Below are positions 5,065 to 28,239 of a DNA stretch of 35,106 nucleotides, piece after piece; the first letter of the stretch is position 1, and the number at the start of each line of letters is the position of its first letter. Made by a program: the position numbers and the translations under genes. The stretch is taken from the NCBI GenBank assembly GCA_944392515.1, contig CALXWV010000012.1, positions 1 through 35,106 of the forward strand, given 5' to 3'. Source of the stretch: an uncultured Clostridia bacterium (GTDB lineage: Bacteria; Bacillota; Clostridia; TANB77; CAG-508). The notes beneath the pieces were generated by a model, which searched no databases, was not told where the DNA came from, and saw only the letters and a program-made list of their open reading frames with translations.

Positions 5065-8000
5065 ATGAATAAAATGTTGGAATTAAGTAGTCAGCAGAAA
5101 AATATTTGGAATACTGAGATGTTTTACAGTAACACAAATATTAACAATATTGGAGGTTATTTATTAATAAATGAACCTGTTAATATTGACCTCTTAGAAA
5201 AAGCAGCAAACCAATATATAAAAACAAATGAGGCATCTAGACTTCATTTTGATTTAAAAAATGGAGAACCTATTCAATTCGTTACTAATTATTCTCCATT
5301 TAAATTACCAATAATCTCTGTAAAAGACCTTAAAGGCTTAAGTAAATTAACTACAGAGCTTGTTTCAAAACCCTTTGAAATAATTAATTCAAATTTATAT
5401 AATTTTACTTTATTTAAATTGCCTGATGGCAAAGGTGGTATTGTCCCTGTTTTCCATCATTTAATTGGCGACGCTTGGAGTATGGGACTATTTATTACAA
5501 GATTTATTAATATCTATTCTGACTTGTTAAAAGGAACCACTCACTTTGAGGAAACTCCAAATTATGCAGATTACATTACTTCTTGTGAAGAATACAAAAA
5601 AAGTAACAGATATGTTAAAGATAAAGAATTCTGGGAGAAAACTTTTGATAAGTTACCTGAATTAACATTCATTTCTCGTAGTAAAGATGTATCTAGCTCA
5701 AAATCTCGTCGTAAAGTTTGTTCTTTTGATAACTCTCTTTATGACAGAATATTAAGCTACTGTCAAAATCAGAAATGTTCTATTTATACATTCTTTATGG
5801 CAATTTTTTCTATTTATTTAGCGAAGATTAATTCTACATCTTCTGCTATTTTAGGTAGCCCTGTATTAAATAGAAGTAATTTTAAAGAAAAAAATACATC
5901 TGGAATGTTCGTAAGTACAGTTCCATTCAAAATAGATTTAGATTCAAATATTAATTTCAAAGATTTTTTAGAAAAGGTTGCTTTACAGCAAGCTTCTATC
6001 TTTAGACACCAAAAATATCCTTATTTACAATTATTAGAAAATATAAAAGAAAAATATAATATAAGTGAAAACTTATATGATTTTGTGCTATCTTATCAAA
6101 ATGCTAGAGATAATAAAGAAACTTCAAGTATAGATTATAAAACTACTTGGGAGCCTATTTCTCATATTTCAGAATCTATTGAAGCACATTTTTATGATAT
6201 GGATGGAAATAATGGAGCTAATATTTTATATGATTATCAAATAGATAAATTTAGTGACAAAGATATTGAAATGCTACATAAAAGAATTTGCAATATTGCA
6301 AATCAAGCTATGCAAAATGCCTGTATAAAAGATATTTCTATTTTGTGTGAAGATGACGAGAAAATAATTAATACTTTTAATAATACTCCTTTTAATTACG
6401 ATAAAAATGAGAGTTTAGTTAGCATTTTTGAAAAAATTGTAAAGAAAAATGCTACAAAAAAAGCATATATTTTTAAAGGTCAAAAATTAACCTATAAAGA
6501 ATTAGATGAAAAATCTAATATAATAGCAAATTATTTAATAGGTAAAGGCGTAACTAAAAATGATGTTATAGGCATAATGTTTAATCGTTCTTTAAATCTT
6601 CCTATTTCTATTTGGGGAATTTTAAAAACAGGTGCTAGTTATATGCTAATTGACCCAAGCCTTCCAGAAGATAGAATAAATTATATGCTTACAAATGCAA
6701 AAGCTAAATATGTTTTGACTAATTTATATTTAAATTATGATTGTATAAACATAGATGAAATACTATCTAATAATACAAATATTACTTTACCTAAAGTTGA
6801 TTCTTCTAATGAAGATAGATTTTGCGTTATTTATACATCTGGTTCCACAGGCACTCCTAAAGGAGTTGAGCTAAAGAGAATTGGCGTAATAAACATGGTA
6901 AACAGCTATAAAAATATAATTCACACAAGCGAATGTAATGTATTTATTAGTACAAGTACAGTAGCCTTTGATATGTTTATAGTTGAAAATTTTGTATCTA
7001 TTCTCGATGGAAAAACTGTTGTTTTAGCTGATGAGGATGAGCAAAAAATACCTGTTTTTACAAGTAAACTTATAACAAATTATAATGTAGATTTTATATT
7101 AAGCACTCCTTCTAAAATATCACTTTTATTAGAAGAACCTAAATGTTTAAAAAATGTAAAAGTAATACAACTTGGTGGTGAAGTCTTTAAAGAGTCTTTA
7201 TATATAAAATTAAGAAAAGCTACATCTGCTAGAATATATAATGGATATGGACCTTCTGAATGTACAGCTTGTGCTTCAAATAAACTTGTAGAAAGCTCAA
7301 ATAATATTTGTATTGGAAAACCATTCTTAAATACTAAAATATTTATAATGAATAATGATAATAATATTTTACCAATCAAAACTCAAGGTGAAATTGTAAT
7401 TCAAGGTGATGGTGTTGGTAAAGGATATGTTAATAAATTTGATTTTAACGGAATTTATCATACTGGTGATTTAGGTATGATTTCTGAAAATGGAGAACTT
7501 ATTTACTTTGGAAGAAAAGATAATCAAATTAAACTACATGGTCTTCGTATTGAACTAGACGAAATTACAAGTAAAATAATGCAAATAAATGGTTTTACAA
7601 ATGCTATTACTGTTATAAAACAAGTTGGTGGTATTGACTCAATTTGTGCATATATTCAAAGTAAAGAAGTCTTTGATGAAACTGAAATTAAAGAGACACT
7701 CGCTAAAAGCTTACCAAAATATATGGTTCCATCACATATTGTAAGATTAGATACATTTCCTATTACTTTGAATGGTAAAATAGATACTAAAAAACTTCCA
7801 GACATAATTATAAAAGAAGATGATTTTGTTCCTTGTACTACAGTAACAGAAAAGAAATTAGAGAAAATATGCAAGGAAATATTTAATAAAGAAAAATTAA
7901 GTTCTAAAGCTAATTTCTTTGATTTAGGTGCAGATTCTCTAGCTATTATTAGATTTGTGTCTGAAATATATAGCAAATTTAACATAAAAGTATCTATACA

Positions 8001-11000
8001 AGATATTTATACATATCCATTTATTAATAGCTTAGCAAAATATATAGATAAATTATTAACTTCAAATGGTGTTTCAAATAAATCTAATAATATTATTAAA
8101 AAGCATAAAGAAGCAAGTTCTTACCCTGTTTCTTCAGCTCAAAGACGTATTTTCTATACTGTTAATATGGAAAAAGAAAATACAGCATATAACACACCAT
8201 TTGGAATAATCTTTTATAATAAACCTGATATAAAAAAATTAGAAGAAGCATTTAGAAAAGTTCTAAATAGTCATGATGCTTTTAAAACCTATTTTGTTTT
8301 AGAGAACAATGATGTGGTTCAAAAATTAGTACCAAAAGTAGATTTCACTTTAAAAACTTGTAATTATAAGAATGATAACTTTATAACTGCTTTTGATTTA
8401 TCTAAAGCTCCTCTTCTTCATGCTGAACTAGATCATTATGATAATAAATATTTATTACAACTAGATATACATCATATAATTTGTGATGGTTCATCAATTG
8501 CTATTTTTATGAAAGAATTATGTAATTTATATAACGGAAATGAAGTAAAACACTCTAAAATAGATTATATTGATTATGCTGTATCAGAAAAAATAAATGA
8601 GGACGATGAAAAATACTGGCTAAATCAATTTAAAGATGAGGTTCCTATACTTAATATGCCAACAGAGTTTGAAAGATCTTCTATTAAATCATATGATGGA
8701 AATAATGTATATTTAACCTTAGATAATTCATCTGATATATCTAACTTATGTAAAAAATATAATGTGACTCCATATATGTTCTTGCTATCATGTTTTTACA
8801 TATTACTTTATAAATATACAATGCAAAATGACCTTGTTATAGGAACACCTGTAATAGGAAGAAATAATCCTGATTTAAGTAATGTTATAGGTATGTTTGT
8901 TAATACTTTAGCAATTAGACAAAATATACAATCTACTAATAAATTTTCAGATTTTCTAAACTTAGTAAAAAATAATTGTTTAAATGCTTACAATCATCAA
9001 TCATATCCTTTTGATGAATTAGTAAAAAAGTTAAATGTAGTAAGATCTTCAAGCCATAGCCCTGTTTTTGATGTATTATTTACTTATGAAAGTGAAGGAG
9101 TCCCTGAATTTCATTTTGATAATAGCAAAGTAGATTATTACGTTCCTCAAAATAATACTTCAAAATTTGACTTTTCTTTGGAAATAACTCCAAAGAATAA
9201 CGGGTTTAAATTAAGATTAGAATATTGTACAAAACTTTTTAGTAAACGATTTATGGAAAACTTATTAGATTGTTATAACAACATAATAAAGTCTGTTATA
9301 AGCAATAATGATATTCAGATATCTCAAATTCAAATGCTATCTAATATTCCTAATATATATCCTACTTTAGACTATCCTAAAGAAGATAGAATTATAGATA
9401 TGTTTGAAAGACAAGTTTCTAAAACTCCTGATAGAATTGCTTTAGTATTTGGAGAAGAAAAATATACATATAAAGAATTACAAGAAAAAGTAAATAAACT
9501 TGCCTACCATTTGCATAGTTTAGGAGATAATGAAGTTATTGGTATTTTAATGGATAGAAGTGCTAATATTATAATTTCTATGCTTGCAATATTAAAATCT
9601 GGAGCAGGATATTTGCCTATCGATCCAACATATCCTGAAGAAAGAATTAAATATATTATAGAAGATAGCAAAGTAAATATAATTTTAACAGAAAATAAAT
9701 ATAAGGATATCATTCCTGTTAAGGCTGTTTTAGTTGATGATGAAAATATTTATAAAAAATATAAATCATTTGAAACTTCACAAACTCCTGATAGTTTAGC
9801 ATATTTAATTTATACATCTGGTTCTACAGGAAAGCCTAAGGGAGTTATGATTAAACAATCTAATGTAGTAAACTTTATTTATGGAACTCTTCATGATATG
9901 CCATTAAAAGATTTAACAATTGTTTCAATTACAACTATGTGTTTTGATATTTTTGTTTTTGAAAGTTTACTTCCTTTATGTTCAGGAATGAAGGTTATAA
10001 TGGCAAGTAATGAAGAACAGAATAACCCTATTTTATTAAATGACTTATGCTTAAAAAATAAAGTAGATGTAATTCAAACAACTCCATCTAAATTTAAAGT
10101 ACTAATGACAGATAAATTACCTTATTTGAAAAATCTTAAGGTTATATCTCTTATTGGAGAACCTTTTCCTTTAGATTTATTAAAAAATATAAAATCTGTT
10201 TCAAATACTAGAATATATAACATGTATGGTCCAACAGAAACAACAGTTGGCTCTACTTTAAAAGAACTAACTAAAACTAATAATATAACTATTGGTGTTC
10301 CATTACCTAATACTCATGCTTTAGTTTTAGATAATGATATGAACTTTGTTCCATATAATGTACCCGGTACTCTTTATATTGGAGGAGACGGTGTAACTAT
10401 TGGTTACAAAAATAGGCCTGAATTAACAGCTGAAAAATATGTTATATATAATGGCGAAAGAATATATAATACAGGAGATTTAGCTAAGCTTCTACCAAAT
10501 GGAGAATTAGAATGTTTAGGAAGGGCAGATTTTCAAGTAAAGGTTCATGGTTTAAGAATAGAACTTGGAGAAATTGAAAGTGATATTTGTAGTTATAGGG
10601 GGGTAAAATCTGCTGTTGTAACAGTAAAAAACGTACAAGGTAGAGACATCCTTTGTGGATATTTTGTTGCAGATGGTAGAGTATCTCTTTCACTTTTAAA
10701 AAAAGCTTTAGCTAAAAAGCTACCAAACTATATGGTACCAAATTATTTAGTACAATTAGACACCTTTAGTTATACTCCAAATGGAAAGATTGATAGAAAA
10801 GTTTTACCAGAACCAATTTTTAAAGCAAAAGAAATAGTACCTCCTAAAAATGAACTAGAGAATAGAATTCTTAATATATGGAGAAAAATACTATCTCTAG
10901 AAGAAATAAGCACAAATGATAATTTCTTTGAAATTGGAGGAGATTCTTTAAGTGCTCTTAGAATGCAAATAGAGTTAATGAAAAATAATTACAATGTTAA

Positions 11001-12288
11001 TTATGGAGATCTATTTAAAAATAATACTATTCGTGATTTAGCTAATTTTATACAAAATAATTTAAAGCAAAAATACGAAATAAAATATACTAAAAAAGAT
11101 TTTAGAAGCATAAATAAATTACTAAAGAAAAATTCTACTTTTAGAAGTATGAAGCTTAAACAAAAAATGCTTAAAAATGTTTTATTAGTTGGTGCAACAG
11201 GATTTCTTGGAATACATGTATTAGCAGAACTATTAAAAATTGATGATATAAAAATATATTGCTTAATTCGTAGAGATCCTAGTACATCTCCAGAAAATAA
11301 ATTAAAACGTAAATTCCAGTATTATTTTGGAAGTGATTTAAGTAATTTATTTGGTAAAAGATTATTTGTTATAGCAGGAGATATAACTATAGATAGTTTT
11401 AATACATCAGAAGATATATATAATTTCTTAGGTAAAGAAGTTCAAACTGTTGTAAATTGTGCAGCTTCTGTTAAACATTATGGATACTATGGCGAATTTG
11501 AAAAAATAAACGTTATTGGTGTTAAAAATTTAGTTAAGTTCTGTGAAGAATTTAATAAAGAGTTTTATCAAACTTCTACTATTAGTGTTTCAGGAAATAC
11601 TATGACATCTCTACCTAGTAGTTATACTCCAAAAAAAGAAGTTCATTTTGGTGAAAATAATTTATTTATAAATCAGCCTCTAGACAATGTGTATGTAAGA
11701 AGCAAATTTGAAGCTGAAAAATATGTGTTAGAAGAAATTTACCAAAAGAAGTTAAAAGGATTAATTCTTAGAATAGGTAATATTACTAATAGATATACTG
11801 ATGGAAAATTTCAAGAAAATAGTAATGATAACGCATTTTTAAATAGACTAAAAGCTTTTCTATTTTTGAAAGAGTTACCTAAATCTATGTTAAATAATTA
11901 CATTGAATTTAGTCCTGTTGATAAAATTGCTGAATCAATTGTATTATGTATGAGATATTATACTTATCCAATGACAGTTCTTCATTTATACAATTCTAAT
12001 CATTTATATATTAATGTTTTTCTTGAATATTTAAATGATTTAGGCTATTCAATTAATGTAGTTGATGATAAAATTTTTAAAAATCATTTAAATAATTTAT
12101 TATTTAATAGTAATGATTCTGATAAAGTAAGCATTTTGCTTAATGATTTAGATAAAAATAAAAATTTAGTTTACAAAACTAATTTAAAAATAACAAATAA
12201 ATTTACTTTAAAATTTTTAAATAAAACGGATTTTAGTTGGCCTTTGGTTACAAAAGATTATATAAGAAAAATACTAAAAAACTTATGA
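5065..12288 (+). CDS. Two-module nonribosomal peptide synthetase with terminal reductase (C-A-T-C-A-T-R)
   Basis: A 2407-residue assembly line. C1 spans about 1-430 (HHLIGDA at 131-137, last G of HHxxxDG changed to A). A1 spans about 448-905 (YTSGSTG from 590, GYGPSE from 727, GRKDNQIKLHG near 815). T1 carries Ser958 in LGADSL. C2 spans about 1017-1435 (HHIICDG from 1136). A2 spans about 1439-1900 (YTSGSTG from 1583, YGPTE from 1721). T2 carries Ser1961 in IGGDSL. The C-terminal reductase spans about 2035-2400 (GATGFLG at 2043-2049, Tyr2210 and Lys2214 of YxxxK). It should join two amino acids and release them reductively as an aldehyde. My hand-read specificity residues are D-M-V-L-Q-G-G-A-C-K for A1 and D-I-F-Q-S-I-M-V-G-K for A2; I cannot assign substrates. 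The N-terminal C domain suggests N-acylation of the first residue. No phosphopantetheinyl transferase or exporter is nearby. The stop overlaps the kinase gene's ribosome binding site. Confidence 0.95.
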   Translation: MNKMLELSSQQKNIWNTEMFYSNTNINNIGGYLLINEPVNIDLLEKAANQYIKTNEASRLHFDLKNGEPIQFVTNYSPFKLPIISVKDLKGLSKLTTELVSKPFEIINSNLYNFTLFKLPDGKGGIVPVFHHLIGDAWSMGLFITRFINIYSDLLKGTTHFEETPNYADYITSCEEYKKSNRYVKDKEFWEKTFDKLPELTFISRSKDVSSSKSRRKVCSFDNSLYDRILSYCQNQKCSIYTFFMAIFSIYLAKINSTSSAILGSPVLNRSNFKEKNTSGMFVSTVPFKIDLDSNINFKDFLEKVALQQASIFRHQKYPYLQLLENIKEKYNISENLYDFVLSYQNARDNKETSSIDYKTTWEPISHISESIEAHFYDMDGNNGANILYDYQIDKFSDKDIEMLHKRICNIANQAMQNACIKDISILCEDDEKIINTFNNTPFNYDKNESLVSIFEKIVKKNATKKAYIFKGQKLTYKELDEKSNIIANYLIGKGVTKNDVIGIMFNRSLNLPISIWGILKTGASYMLIDPSLPEDRINYMLTNAKAKYVLTNLYLNYDCINIDEILSNNTNITLPKVDSSNEDRFCVIYTSGSTGTPKGVELKRIGVINMVNSYKNIIHTSECNVFISTSTVAFDMFIVENFVSILDGKTVVLADEDEQKIPVFTSKLITNYNVDFILSTPSKISLLLEEPKCLKNVKVIQLGGEVFKESLYIKLRKATSARIYNGYGPSECTACASNKLVESSNNICIGKPFLNTKIFIMNNDNNILPIKTQGEIVIQGDGVGKGYVNKFDFNGIYHTGDLGMISENGELIYFGRKDNQIKLHGLRIELDEITSKIMQINGFTNAITVIKQVGGIDSICAYIQSKEVFDETEIKETLAKSLPKYMVPSHIVRLDTFPITLNGKIDTKKLPDIIIKEDDFVPCTTVTEKKLEKICKEIFNKEKLSSKANFFDLGADSLAIIRFVSEIYSKFNIKVSIQDIYTYPFINSLAKYIDKLLTSNGVSNKSNNIIKKHKEASSYPVSSAQRRIFYTVNMEKENTAYNTPFGIIFYNKPDIKKLEEAFRKVLNSHDAFKTYFVLENNDVVQKLVPKVDFTLKTCNYKNDNFITAFDLSKAPLLHAELDHYDNKYLLQLDIHHIICDGSSIAIFMKELCNLYNGNEVKHSKIDYIDYAVSEKINEDDEKYWLNQFKDEVPILNMPTEFERSSIKSYDGNNVYLTLDNSSDISNLCKKYNVTPYMFLLSCFYILLYKYTMQNDLVIGTPVIGRNNPDLSNVIGMFVNTLAIRQNIQSTNKFSDFLNLVKNNCLNAYNHQSYPFDELVKKLNVVRSSSHSPVFDVLFTYESEGVPEFHFDNSKVDYYVPQNNTSKFDFSLEITPKNNGFKLRLEYCTKLFSKRFMENLLDCYNNIIKSVISNNDIQISQIQMLSNIPNIYPTLDYPKEDRIIDMFERQVSKTPDRIALVFGEEKYTYKELQEKVNKLAYHLHSLGDNEVIGILMDRSANIIISMLAILKSGAGYLPIDPTYPEERIKYIIEDSKVNIILTENKYKDIIPVKAVLVDDENIYKKYKSFETSQTPDSLAYLIYTSGSTGKPKGVMIKQSNVVNFIYGTLHDMPLKDLTIVSITTMCFDIFVFESLLPLCSGMKVIMASNEEQNNPILLNDLCLKNKVDVIQTTPSKFKVLMTDKLPYLKNLKVISLIGEPFPLDLLKNIKSVSNTRIYNMYGPTETTVGSTLKELTKTNNITIGVPLPNTHALVLDNDMNFVPYNVPGTLYIGGDGVTIGYKNRPELTAEKYVIYNGERIYNTGDLAKLLPNGELECLGRADFQVKVHGLRIELGEIESDICSYRGVKSAVVTVKNVQGRDILCGYFVADGRVSLSLLKKALAKKLPNYMVPNYLVQLDTFSYTPNGKIDRKVLPEPIFKAKEIVPPKNELENRILNIWRKILSLEEISTNDNFFEIGGDSLSALRMQIELMKNNYNVNYGDLFKNNTIRDLANFIQNNLKQKYEIKYTKKDFRSINKLLKKNSTFRSMKLKQKMLKNVLLVGATGFLGIHVLAELLKIDDIKIYCLIRRDPSTSPENKLKRKFQYYFGSDLSNLFGKRLFVIAGDITIDSFNTSEDIYNFLGKEVQTVVNCAASVKHYGYYGEFEKINVIGVKNLVKFCEEFNKEFYQTSTISVSGNTMTSLPSSYTPKKEVHFGENNLFINQPLDNVYVRSKFEAEKYVLEEIYQKKLKGLILRIGNITNRYTDGKFQENSNDNAFLNRLKAFLFLKELPKSMLNNYIEFSPVDKIAESIVLCMRYYTYPMTVLHLYNSNHLYINVFLEYLNDLGYSINVVDDKIFKNHLNNLLFNSNDSDKVSILLNDLDKNKNLVYKTNLKITNKFTLKFLNKTDFSWPLVTKDYIRKILKNL

Positions 12289-26427: not shown

Positions 26428-26458
26428 AAAAAAAGAAAGCTTTTTTAATGCTTTCTTT
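26428..26458 (-). terminator. Terminator of the SDR gene
   Basis: A 9-bp perfect stem AAAGAAAGC/GCTTTCTTT (26432-26440 with 26450-26458). On the minus strand it is followed by four more T. It overlaps the last bases of the SDR stop codon. Confidence 0.75.
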
Positions 26459-27200
26459 ATATATTCCAACCACCATTTACTTGTATAACTTGTCCAGTAA
26501 TATATTCTGCATTTGCTAAAAATAGTACGCAATCTGCTACATCCTCTACATTTCCAATATGCTCTAGTGGTATTTCTGAAATTATTTGCTCTTTTTCTTC
26601 TTTTGTAAGAAACTTATTCATATCAGTGTCTATTATTCCAGGAGCTATACTATTTACTTGTATATTAGATGGTCCAAGTTCTTTTGCCAATGATTTAGTC
26701 ATTGCGTCTAATCCTGCTTTACTAACTGAGTAAGCCATTTCACATGATGCTCCAATTATTCCCCATATAGAGCTTATATTTATTATCTTTCCTGATTTAT
26801 TATTTATCATATATTTTGATACTTCTTTTGATGTATAAAATGCTGAGTATAAATTTGTTTTTAATACTTTGTCAAATTCCTCTATCTTTGTATCATTTAT
26901 TGTTTTTACTAAGTCAATTCCAGCATTATTTACTAACAAATCTATTTTTCCAAATTTATTTATAGTAAAATCTATTAGTCCTTTTACTTCATCATAATTT
27001 GATATGTCAGCCTCATAAGAATAAATGTTATCAAATTTATTTTCTATTTCTTTTGCTTCTTTTTCTGATTTATTATAATTTAATACAACAATATATCCAT
27101 TTTGAGCCAATTTTTTTACTATTGAAGCTCCTATTCCTCTTGATCCACCTGTTACTATTGCAACTTTACTCTCTATATTTTTTTCTTGATTTTCTACCAT
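26457..27200 (-). CDS. SDR-family oxidoreductase, 3-oxoacyl-ACP reductase (FabG)-like
   Basis: 247 residues, the standard length for a classical short-chain dehydrogenase. The NAD(P)-binding motif is TGGSRGIG (about 18-25), the structural motif is LVNNAGID (about 88-95), and the catalytic set is Ser in INISSIWG with YSVSK (Tyr about 155, Lys about 159). It ends in GQVIQVNGGW, typical of FabG-like enzymes. It would reduce a ketone with NADPH or NADH, perhaps in fatty-acid synthesis. However, it lies outside any fab cluster, so another substrate is possible. Its ATG is inside the upstream HNH gene (35-base overlap), with AAAGGAG as a good internal ribosome binding site, so the two are co-transcribed. 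Confidence 0.88.
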   Translation of the reverse strand: MVENQEKNIESKVAIVTGGSRGIGASIVKKLAQNGYIVVLNYNKSEKEAKEIENKFDNIYSYEADISNYDEVKGLIDFTINKFGKIDLLVNNAGIDLVKTINDTKIEEFDKVLKTNLYSAFYTSKEVSKYMINNKSGKIINISSIWGIIGASCEMAYSVSKAGLDAMTKSLAKELGPSNIQVNSIAPGIIDTDMNKFLTKEEKEQIISEIPLEHIGNVEDVADCVLFLANAEYITGQVIQVNGGWNI

Positions 27201-27552
27201 TTCTATTTGCTCCTTTATATGTACTAGTTAAAGAATGACAATTTGGGCATAACAAGATTAAATTTTCCTCCTTATTGTTTAAATAATTACCATCAATATG
27301 CTCAATTTCTAAAGGAATGTTTCCTGTATATGGATTAATTTCGTTCCAACCACATCTTGCACACTTATTATTATATTTTTTATATAAATAGTCTTTTATA
27401 TATAATGAAGTTTGATAAGCTCCTCTTAATCCATTAACTTCATTATTTTTCCATTTTTTAATATATGTTATATATTGATATTCTTTTTGACATTTATTAT
27501 TACAAAATTTCTTCTTTCGAGAGATTTTTCTACCACAATTTAAACAATTCAT
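27166..27552 (-). CDS. Small HNH endonuclease with N-terminal zinc ribbon
   Basis: 128 residues. The N-terminus has CxxC and CxxxC pairs (NCLNCGRK, FCNNKCQKE) forming a zinc ribbon. The C-terminal half is an HNH nuclease fold: CARCGW, then LEIEHIDGNYLNNKEENLILLCPNCHSLT, with the catalytic His-Ile-Asp, the central Asn and a zinc-binding CPNC. Proteins like this occur in phages, as free-standing homing-type nucleases and as orphans. AAAGGAAAC lies before the ATG. Its 3' end overlaps the SDR gene. It lies about 120 bases downstream of, and on the same strand as, the intron-split tRNA-Thr, which raises the question of a link to that intron; nothing in the sequence proves it. Confidence 0.88.
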   Translation of the reverse strand: MNCLNCGRKISRKKKFCNNKCQKEYQYITYIKKWKNNEVNGLRGAYQTSLYIKDYLYKKYNNKCARCGWNEINPYTGNIPLEIEHIDGNYLNNKEENLILLCPNCHSLTSTYKGANRNGRKSRKKYRE

Positions 27553-27611
27553 AAAAGTTTCCTTTCCTCTTTTTATGTAATATAAAAATTATGATGTCAT
27601 TATATTTAATT

Positions 27612-27644
27612 ATATAAAAAAATAAAAGCCAATAACAATAGCTT
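27612..27644 (-). terminator. Probable terminator of the tRNA operon
   Basis: On the minus strand a 6-bp stem with one wobble (AAGCTA with TGGCTT, 27639-27644 with 27626-27631) and a seven-base loop, followed by TTATTTTTTT. It is 26 bases past the tRNA-Thr 3' end. Confidence 0.5.
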
Positions 27645-27669: not shown

Positions 27670-27971
27670 TGGAGCCACTTGTCCGATTTGAACGGACGAC
27701 CTACTGATTCATACCACTACAATTTTCATTGCCATATAATGTTTGTGGTCTGGACTTTCTCTTTGCCATAGATAAACCTTAGGCACATCGTATAAAGTCT
27801 CTACACTCGAAATTGCTTTCTAGCTCGGGATTAACATATATTTCTATTTAGTCTTCCCCGAATTAGCGATGTCCACTTTGCAAGTTTCCTCACAAAGGTG
27901 CAAGATAGTTCAAAGTAATTAATATTACCTATCCCACAAGTCAGTTGCTCTACCAGCTGAGCTAAAGTGGC
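27670..27971 (-). tRNA. tRNA-Thr(TGT) interrupted by a group I intron
   Basis: The 5' exon is 27936-27971 and the 3' exon 27670-27709; joined they give a normal 76-base tRNA. Its parts are acceptor stem GCCACTT/AAGTGGC, D-arm GCTC..GAGC, anticodon stem ACTGA/TCAGT with loop CTTGTAA (anticodon TGT, reading ACA), T-arm GTCCG-TTCAAAT-CGGAC, discriminator T and encoded CCA. The interruption falls between positions 36 and 37, directly after the anticodon. It is the last gene of a three-tRNA operon, only five bases after tRNA-Glu. Without splicing it cannot fold its anticodon arm. Confidence 0.93.
27710..27935 (-). ncRNA. Group I (IC3-type) self-splicing intron in tRNA-Thr
   Basis: 226 nt with no open frame. 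The 5' exon ends in T and the intron ends in G, as required for group I splicing. Core helices that can be drawn (plus-strand positions): P3 ACATCG/CGATGT (27867-27872 with 27785-27790); P4 TCGGG/CCCGA (27857-27861 with 27825-27829); P7 GACT/AGTC (in 27796-27802 and 27752-27756); P8 TGCC/GGCA (27782-27785 with 27764-27767); and a closing ACCAC/GTGGT helix near the 3' end. P2 CTTTG/CAAAG is also visible. The conserved stretches AATTCGGGGAA, GTGTAGAGACT, CCTAAGG and AGTCCAG are close to those of the known tRNA introns of cyanobacteria (Leu) and Azoarcus (Ile). A four-pair P1 (exon TTGT with GTAA) is possible. Confidence 0.93.
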
Positions 27972-27976
27972 GTATT

Positions 27977-28051
27977 TGGTGACCCCGACGGGAATCGAAC
28001 CCATGTCTCCGCCGTGAAAGGGCGATGTCTTAACCGCTTGACCACGGGGCC
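27977..28051 (-). tRNA. tRNA-Glu(TTC)
   Basis: 75 bases with encoded CCA. Acceptor GGCCCCG/CGGGGTC, anticodon stem TCGCC/GGCGG region with loop CTTTCAC (anticodon TTC), and T-loop TTCGATT. It is five bases upstream of the split tRNA-Thr. Confidence 0.95.
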
Positions 28052-28093: not shown

Positions 28094-28169
28094 TGGTGAG
28101 CCATCGGGGAATCGAACCCCGGACAACTTGATTAAAAGTCAAGTGCTCTACCAACTGAGCTAATGACTC
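28094..28169 (-). tRNA. tRNA-Lys(TTT)
   Basis: 76 bases with encoded CCA. Acceptor GAGTCAT/ATGGCTC, anticodon stem CTTGA/TCAAG with loop CTTTTAA (anticodon TTT), and T-arm CGGGG-TTCGATT-CCCCG. It is the first gene of the minus-strand tRNA operon. Confidence 0.96.
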
Positions 28170-28210: not shown

Positions 28211-28239
28211 ATTGTACTACAACATATTGTATTTGTCAA
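28211..28239 (-). promoter_or_regulatory. Promoter of the Lys-Glu-Thr tRNA operon
   Basis: On the minus strand, consensus -35 TTGACA (28234-28239), a 17-base spacer and -10 TACAAT (28211-28216). The -35 lies in one arm of a 10-bp perfect inverted repeat CTAGTTGACA/TGTCAACTAG (28193-28202 and 28234-28243) that brackets the promoter. The first IS element begins 35 bases upstream. Confidence 0.85.

Follow-up and report, generated by a model that had tools for sequence, protein, structure and literature searches.

It has long been asked how introns that lack an open reading frame (ORF) come to be mobile by gaining endonucleases, and the question is raised by a tRNA-Thr(UGU) gene found at positions 27670-27971 of a contig (CALXWV010000012.1) from an uncultured Clostridia bacterium (assembly GCA_944392515.1). 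The window, meaning the whole stretch of 35,106 nucleotides (nt) that was analysed, holds this gene as two exons separated by a 226-nt group I intron, with the gene of a small free-standing HNH endonuclease beside it; all features of the locus described below lie on the minus strand. The overall best explanation, which is regarded as probable, is that the tRNA-Thr intron and the HNH gene together form a chromosomal collaborative homing unit. If this is true, the assembly, spread and loss of mobile introns may all be visible at a single tRNA gene.

The 5' exon (27936..27971) ends at anticodon position U36, the anticodon UGU being 27938-27936, and the 3' exon (27670..27709) starts at A37 and encodes the CCA end. 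Between them lies the intron (27710..27935), which closes with a terminal G at 27710 and contains no ORF. With introns allowed, ARAGORN calls a tRNA-Thr(tgt) of 76 nt interrupted after position 36, and re-reading of the exons agrees, which bears out the split gene and ORF-less 226-nt insert reported in a preliminary description made from the sequence; in its default mode ARAGORN gives no call at the locus. The joined exons are a canonical tRNA-Thr, found as an identical uninterrupted 76-nt string in three same-genus genomes (L029, L030, L031); the same-genus genomes G008, G016 and G025 hold the exact spliced gene without interruption. The Rfam model RF00028, known to overlook group I subtypes (PMC6125680), matches 27717-27921 with 33.7 bits (E 5.7e-7 in a 461-base search) against a gathering score of 50 bits, and an Rfam scan of the window at the gathering score lists nothing at the intron. 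Since the match falls under the gathering score, routine annotation would miss the intron, and genomes in which it is missed appear to be without tRNA-Thr, -Tyr or -Asn. It is probable that many uncultured gut bacteria need a ribozyme, unseen by standard annotation, to make one of their essential tRNAs.

The fold of the intron can be followed from end to end. The internal guide UUGCA (27899..27903) pairs its GCA with U34, G35 and U36 of the anticodon in P1, placing a U36·G pair at the splice site, and its UU can pair with A37 and A38 in P10; the guides of related introns follow their host exons. P2 (27876..27897) is closed by a GAAA loop, L2 (27888-27885), and P3 (27872-27867 with 27790-27785) surrounds P4 (27861-27857 with 27829-27825), P5 and P6 within 27785..27872. 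P7 (27799-27795 with 27757-27753; strands GACUU/AAGUC) surrounds P8 within 27753..27799, where an 11-nt tetraloop receptor, CCUAAG/UAUGG, is found at 27783-27778 and 27770-27766, and P9 (27713..27749) carries inner hairpins and a GAAA loop, L9 (27727-27724). Among 24 related introns, double-sided changes are seen in 27 of the 54 pairs, and 95.4% of cells are paired versus 29-39% when the partners are slid; P7 is nearly invariant and contributes no covariation. Together with the RF00028 match, this upholds the group I core described previously, and it is almost certain that the insert is a group I intron and that the tRNA gene is functional. The GAAA loop of L2 and the P8 receptor occur together in most Thr, Asn and Lys introns of the family and in its one Leu intron, while Clostridia Tyr introns are mostly of another kind, with GUGA or GCAA in L2 and no such receptor in P8. 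GNRA loops dock into receptors of this kind. The pair is the tertiary-contact pattern expected for a tRNA group I intron, and L2 would be predicted to dock into P8; the intron may belong to the IC3 subgroup of tRNA introns, in which the P2 loop docks in P8 and L9 in P5. The intron probably self-splices, judging from its sequence: the guide would hold the anticodon in P1 for cleavage by a guanosine behind U36, and the 5' exon so released would be ligated to A37, aided by P10, to give an intact tRNA-Thr(UGU).

The HNH gene (27166..27552, 128 aa), which the preliminary description had overlooked, is located between tRNA-Thr and a gene for a FabG-like short-chain dehydrogenase (26457..27200), whose start overlaps the HNH 3' end. 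Its translation matches Pfam HNH PF01844 with 23.9 bits (cut-off 21.4) as well as PHROG HNH families, and a promoter-like site upstream of it (27609..27638) is a consensus match. The gene occurs in 47 of the 385 genomes of the order, one copy in each. In a search with a covariance model built from these related introns, the Thr-type intron, counted from listed matches of at least about 184 bits (all Thr where the exons were read), is present in about 60 of the 385: 44 of the 47 HNH carriers have it versus 16 of the other 338 genomes (Fisher p ~1e-40, kinship ignored). Of the three remaining carriers, one (G165) is a 45th case, with the end of the intron at the end of a contig, another (G276) has only an HNH remnant beside an intact tRNA, and the third is the exception G162 discussed below. 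At the 70 named Clostridia loci with enough downstream sequence, the HNH gene is full at 38, broken at 6, a remnant at 10 and missing at 16, and at 20 intronless loci (9 in the genus, 11 in other genera of the family) no HNH was found beyond the short scar described below. In the family f4 the gene again adjoins this tRNA but is encoded on the other strand; across different families the HNH stays beside the intron in two orientations. The ORF-less intron is linked to, and inherited with, a free-standing endonuclease gene, which is the linkage that collaborative homing calls for. The HNH protein would on this model be the present or recent mobility partner of the intron, cutting tRNA-Thr(UGU) genes that lack the intron close to the point where it inserts, and repair from the occupied chromosome would copy intron and HNH gene together. 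That the HNH is the homing partner of this intron is reasonably probable, with its cutting deduced from its neighbourhood.

In Bacilli the two elements are found in another arrangement. A homologous HNH is present in 20 of 38 Bacilli loci and, where the context was read, sits inside the loop of P5 in the tRNA-Thr intron, bringing the intron to a length of about 620 nt; some of these copies are frame-broken (L107). The double covariance matches at such loci had been taken for tandem introns, which was wrong, as each is one intron split by an HNH gene in P5. HNHs inside introns and free-standing ones group apart from each other, and viral HNHs fall outside both groups with moderate support (82/84). 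The host gene also stands in a different tRNA cluster in Bacilli, Val-Thr-Tyr-Gln-Lys. One Bacilli tRNA-Thr intron of 336 nt (L087, 51-356 minus), in which no HNH was detected, is perhaps a decayed endonuclease form.

The closest viral relatives of the HNH are 58-60% identical to it and are located in tRNA arrays. In a set of 36 distinct viral loci with a tRNA at most 200 nt downstream, the first downstream tRNA is tRNA-Thr(UGU) in 13, versus 4.5 expected given the tRNAs that these loci contain (p 1.5e-5), and this tRNA is uninterrupted in the loci inspected. The enrichment beside uninterrupted tRNAs suggests that the HNH lineage targets tRNA-Thr(UGU) whether or not an intron is present. A comparable enzyme is SegB of T4/T6, a homing endonuclease of the phage tRNA region that cuts within tRNA genes, is described with GIY-YIG enzymes and shows no isotype preference (PMC13096335). 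Like SegB, the viral members of the HNH family are homing-type endonuclease genes in phage tRNA arrays; unlike it, the family is enriched beside tRNA-Thr(UGU).

Several observations weigh against a homing partnership between intron and HNH. The idea that the HNH never occurs without the intron was refuted by a single exception, G162, in which a full-length HNH with intact motif lies beside an uninterrupted tRNA-Thr; the intron, then, does not come with the HNH every time. Roughly one in four genomes with the intron has no HNH, and many viral-array HNHs of the family adjoin other tRNAs. Correction of the association for kinship on the fabG tree is underpowered and not significant, with 3-5 supported independent pairs, of which 2-3 run in the same direction and 0 in the opposite one. 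These points, along with the intronless tRNA-Thr genes beside the viral relatives, are also what would be seen if the intron were real and spliced and the HNH were a mere neighbour, parked beside tRNA-Thr for its own spread, with the intron inherited vertically and sometimes lost unaided. Such an account is unlikely, though it is the strongest of the alternatives; it sits poorly with the near-constant company that HNH carriers keep with the Thr-type intron, with the same HNH lying inside the same intron in Bacilli, and with its place beside the intron in both orientations and in different families.

Genomes that have lost the intron also speak for the collaborative homing reading. In the fabG tree the intronless G025 is nested within intron-bearing genomes at 100/99, and the intronless G008 and G016 at 93/90. 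These three genomes, and the intron-bearing but HNH-less G015, keep codons matching the last 15-18 residues of the HNH (KGANKNGRKSRKK), of which 15-16 codons remain in the three intronless genomes, a scar that now spans the ribosome-binding site and start of fabG; nearly the same DNA occupies the scar position in G003 and G026, which bear the intron and lack the HNH. The scar ending is native to the HNH, because the Bacilli copies share it, and the fabG genes of other genera start without it. The HNH was therefore lost in place. Read from the tree and the scars, precise loss of the intron took place on two or three occasions at the least, in what are now HNH-less lineages, with replacement by an intronless allele as the alternative to RNA-mediated loss. 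Precise, scarred losses of this kind are rare evidence for a gain-and-loss cycle at a chromosomal gene. In the window itself, the FabG N-terminus appears to be about 10 residues longer than that of other genera at the HNH/FabG overlap (27166-27200).

With the same covariance model, the intron family is found in 130 of the order's 385 genomes. Wider samples gave only 5 carriers among 398 genomes for the phylum and 10 among 391 for the class, counts that include the window's genome and members of the order; RF00028 was uninformative on a small sample of the order's genomes. The named carrier contigs are gut metagenome-assembled genomes labelled Clostridia, Clostridiales, Bacilli, Mollicutes and similar, consistent with the Clostridia-like genome recognised at the outset; we take the order to be TANB77 of GTDB and the Bacilli to be RF39-like, from the contig names UBA7001 and UBA1234. 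By exon reading the hosts are tRNA-Thr(UGU), cut after U36, the tRNAs Tyr(GUA), Asn(GUU) and Lys(CUU), cut after U35, and one tRNA-Leu(UAA) within the order (L194). Several Asn introns had been assigned by ARAGORN to Ile, Thr, Asp, Phe or Leu, and these isotypes, like its boundary for the Lys intron, were dropped on exon reading. The guide fits each host: GCA/UGU for Thr, GCAG/CUGU for Tyr, UUA-GCAG/CUGU^UAA for Asn and UUA-GGAG/CUCU^UAA for Lys. The window's genome has a second intron of the family, between U35 and A36 of a tRNA-Tyr(GUA) (G000:C54, 282-590 minus; L002). In other Clostridia, related introns occur in genes called by ARAGORN as Leu(CAA), Arg(UCU) and Ala (L219, L220, L230), with provisional boundaries. 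Among IMG/VR contigs, tRNA genes with a CUA anticodon are split by introns matching the same model (L276, 4050-4315; L277, c9354-9653); these tRNAs are possibly amber suppressors of recoded phages, in which case suppression would depend on splicing. In a further viral tRNA array (L278, c3674-4332), tRNA-Tyr(GUA) is interrupted by an insert of 581 nt, to which the model aligns as two separate segments.

Movement between hosts is best seen for Thr and Tyr. In six Bacilli (L104, L107, L114, L162, L167, L168), the cores of Tyr and Thr introns in the same cluster are 89-96% identical, versus 68.5% for the Tyr and Thr introns of the window's genome. In the tree the Tyr introns of Bacilli branch from within the Thr introns at two points, away from those of Clostridia (bootstrap not fully settled), and where read they retain the Thr-like guide UUGCAC. 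The two target sites share the sequence UGU^AA and differ by a single position in the tRNA, and the jumps would fit guide-directed insertion better than position-directed insertion. This pattern suits a spread at the RNA level, in which the intron reverse-splices into tRNAs showing UGU before AA and is then reverse-transcribed and recombined, leaving the HNH with local homing only or with no part at all. Reverse splicing is a proposed route (PMC3984707); the review that treats it notes no direct experimental evidence for it, and for the reverse transcriptase step there is likewise none that is direct. Gene conversion between adjacent introns, which may be the other source of the Thr/Tyr likeness, or ectopic cutting by the HNH would leave a similar pattern, and RNA-level spread is held to be rather improbable, a little more so than the neighbour-only account of the HNH.

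The preliminary description had considered an ORF-less intron that stands alone and is kept vertically. As stated, this is not supported: the endonuclease of homing type linked to the intron, the clean losses that recur in the genus and the moves into other tRNAs point to a mobile element. Returning to collaborative homing, a fuller history can be put forward tentatively, as one joint proposal that may well fail in part. The tRNA-Thr gene would record the assembly of a mobile intron, from a phage HNH beside an intact tRNA-Thr(UGU), through a chromosomal HNH and an ORF-less intron moving together, to a composite with the HNH in P5, followed by losses after which the next gene starts in sequence derived from the HNH; the intron would also have hopped between Thr and Tyr through their shared UGU^AA. 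The direction of these steps, as well as splicing and DNA cutting, we infer from the comparisons above.

It is very improbable that the locus is a decayed or unspliced copy whose role is filled by another tRNA-Thr(UGU). The window's genome is just 77% complete and splicing is deduced, which gives this idea what room it has; the search for a second tRNA-Thr(UGU) proposed in the preliminary description found none in that genome, nor in G028, G011 and other nearly complete relatives that bear the intron, and it readily detects intact genes. The accompanying search of relatives, as set out above, turned up both intact and split tRNA-Thr genes, and the identity of the exons to the intact ones and the compensatory changes that keep the fold across many species are not what decay would leave. 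The split gene is probably the sole decoder of ACA, which is the commonest Thr codon (254 of 474 in the window's larger ORFs), in line with the frequent use anticipated earlier. Removal of the insert by a protein, an archaeal-type tRNA endonuclease, is barely conceivable: the site adjoins 37/38, the position of enzymatically spliced tRNA introns (PMC4033280), but a full group I core with covariation, the U·G pair in P1 and the terminal G are present, in a bacterial genome.

Bacterial tRNA group I introns have been reviewed from Cyanobacteria and alpha/beta-proteobacteria (PMC4033280) and in fMet and Ile2 genes (PMC8450103), and short cyanobacterial Arg, Gly and Lys insertions have been reported as group I introns (PMC5733544). 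A search of the open-access literature turned up no earlier description of a group I intron in a bacterial tRNA-Thr(UGU), whether from Clostridia, Bacilli or another group, which is not proof of absence; the suggestion that the intron may be undescribed stands to that extent. Like the introns of cyanobacterial and plastid tRNA-Leu(UAA) and of bacterial fMet, Ile and Arg genes, it is small and ORF-less, interrupts the anticodon loop, follows a U and ends in G; unlike them, it has tRNA-Thr(UGU), cut after U36, as host and belongs to uncultured Clostridia and Bacilli. The Synechocystis tRNA-fMet intron reportedly has its own endonuclease, in work attributed to Biniszkiewicz in 1994 and to Bonocora and Shub in 2001 and cited in PMC8450103 and PMC3984707. 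A tRNA intron and an endonuclease that targets a tRNA gene, the latter putative here, are common to both systems, while the tRNA is different and the endonuclease is an HNH enzyme that lies, in the window, outside the intron. The group I introns of tmRNA are also widespread and small, occupy several neighbouring subsites in a tRNA-like gene and include few with endonuclease genes (PMC11915505), but they interrupt the T-loop of tmRNA and not the anticodon loop of a tRNA.

Collaborative (trans) homing, in which a free-standing endonuclease has an intron insertion site as its target, was described from two phages in a review that presents it as a way for composite mobile introns to arise (PMC3984707), and has also been treated for the terminase of phage ICP1 in a phage survey that suggests endonuclease turnover instead (PMC10448857); within the open-access literature it has so far been described from phages. 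The present case differs in its location on bacterial chromosomes, in an essential tRNA gene, and in having a single HNH lineage that is free-standing in some clades and lies inside the intron in others, with cutting that is here deduced. As dozens of gut genomes show one or the other arrangement at the same tRNA gene, and close relatives differ by gain or loss, the model is directly testable, and the set could separate collaborative homing from endonuclease turnover by experiment.

The tRNA-Thr gene is the last of a Lys-Glu-Thr cluster, preceded by tRNA-Glu(UUC) at 27977..28051 and tRNA-Lys(UUU) at 28094..28169, both called by default ARAGORN. Upstream of the cluster, a promoter-like site, TTGACA-17-TACAAT (28211..28239), is a consensus match. 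Elsewhere in the window, a single ORF of 2407 aa occupies 5065-12288 of the plus strand.
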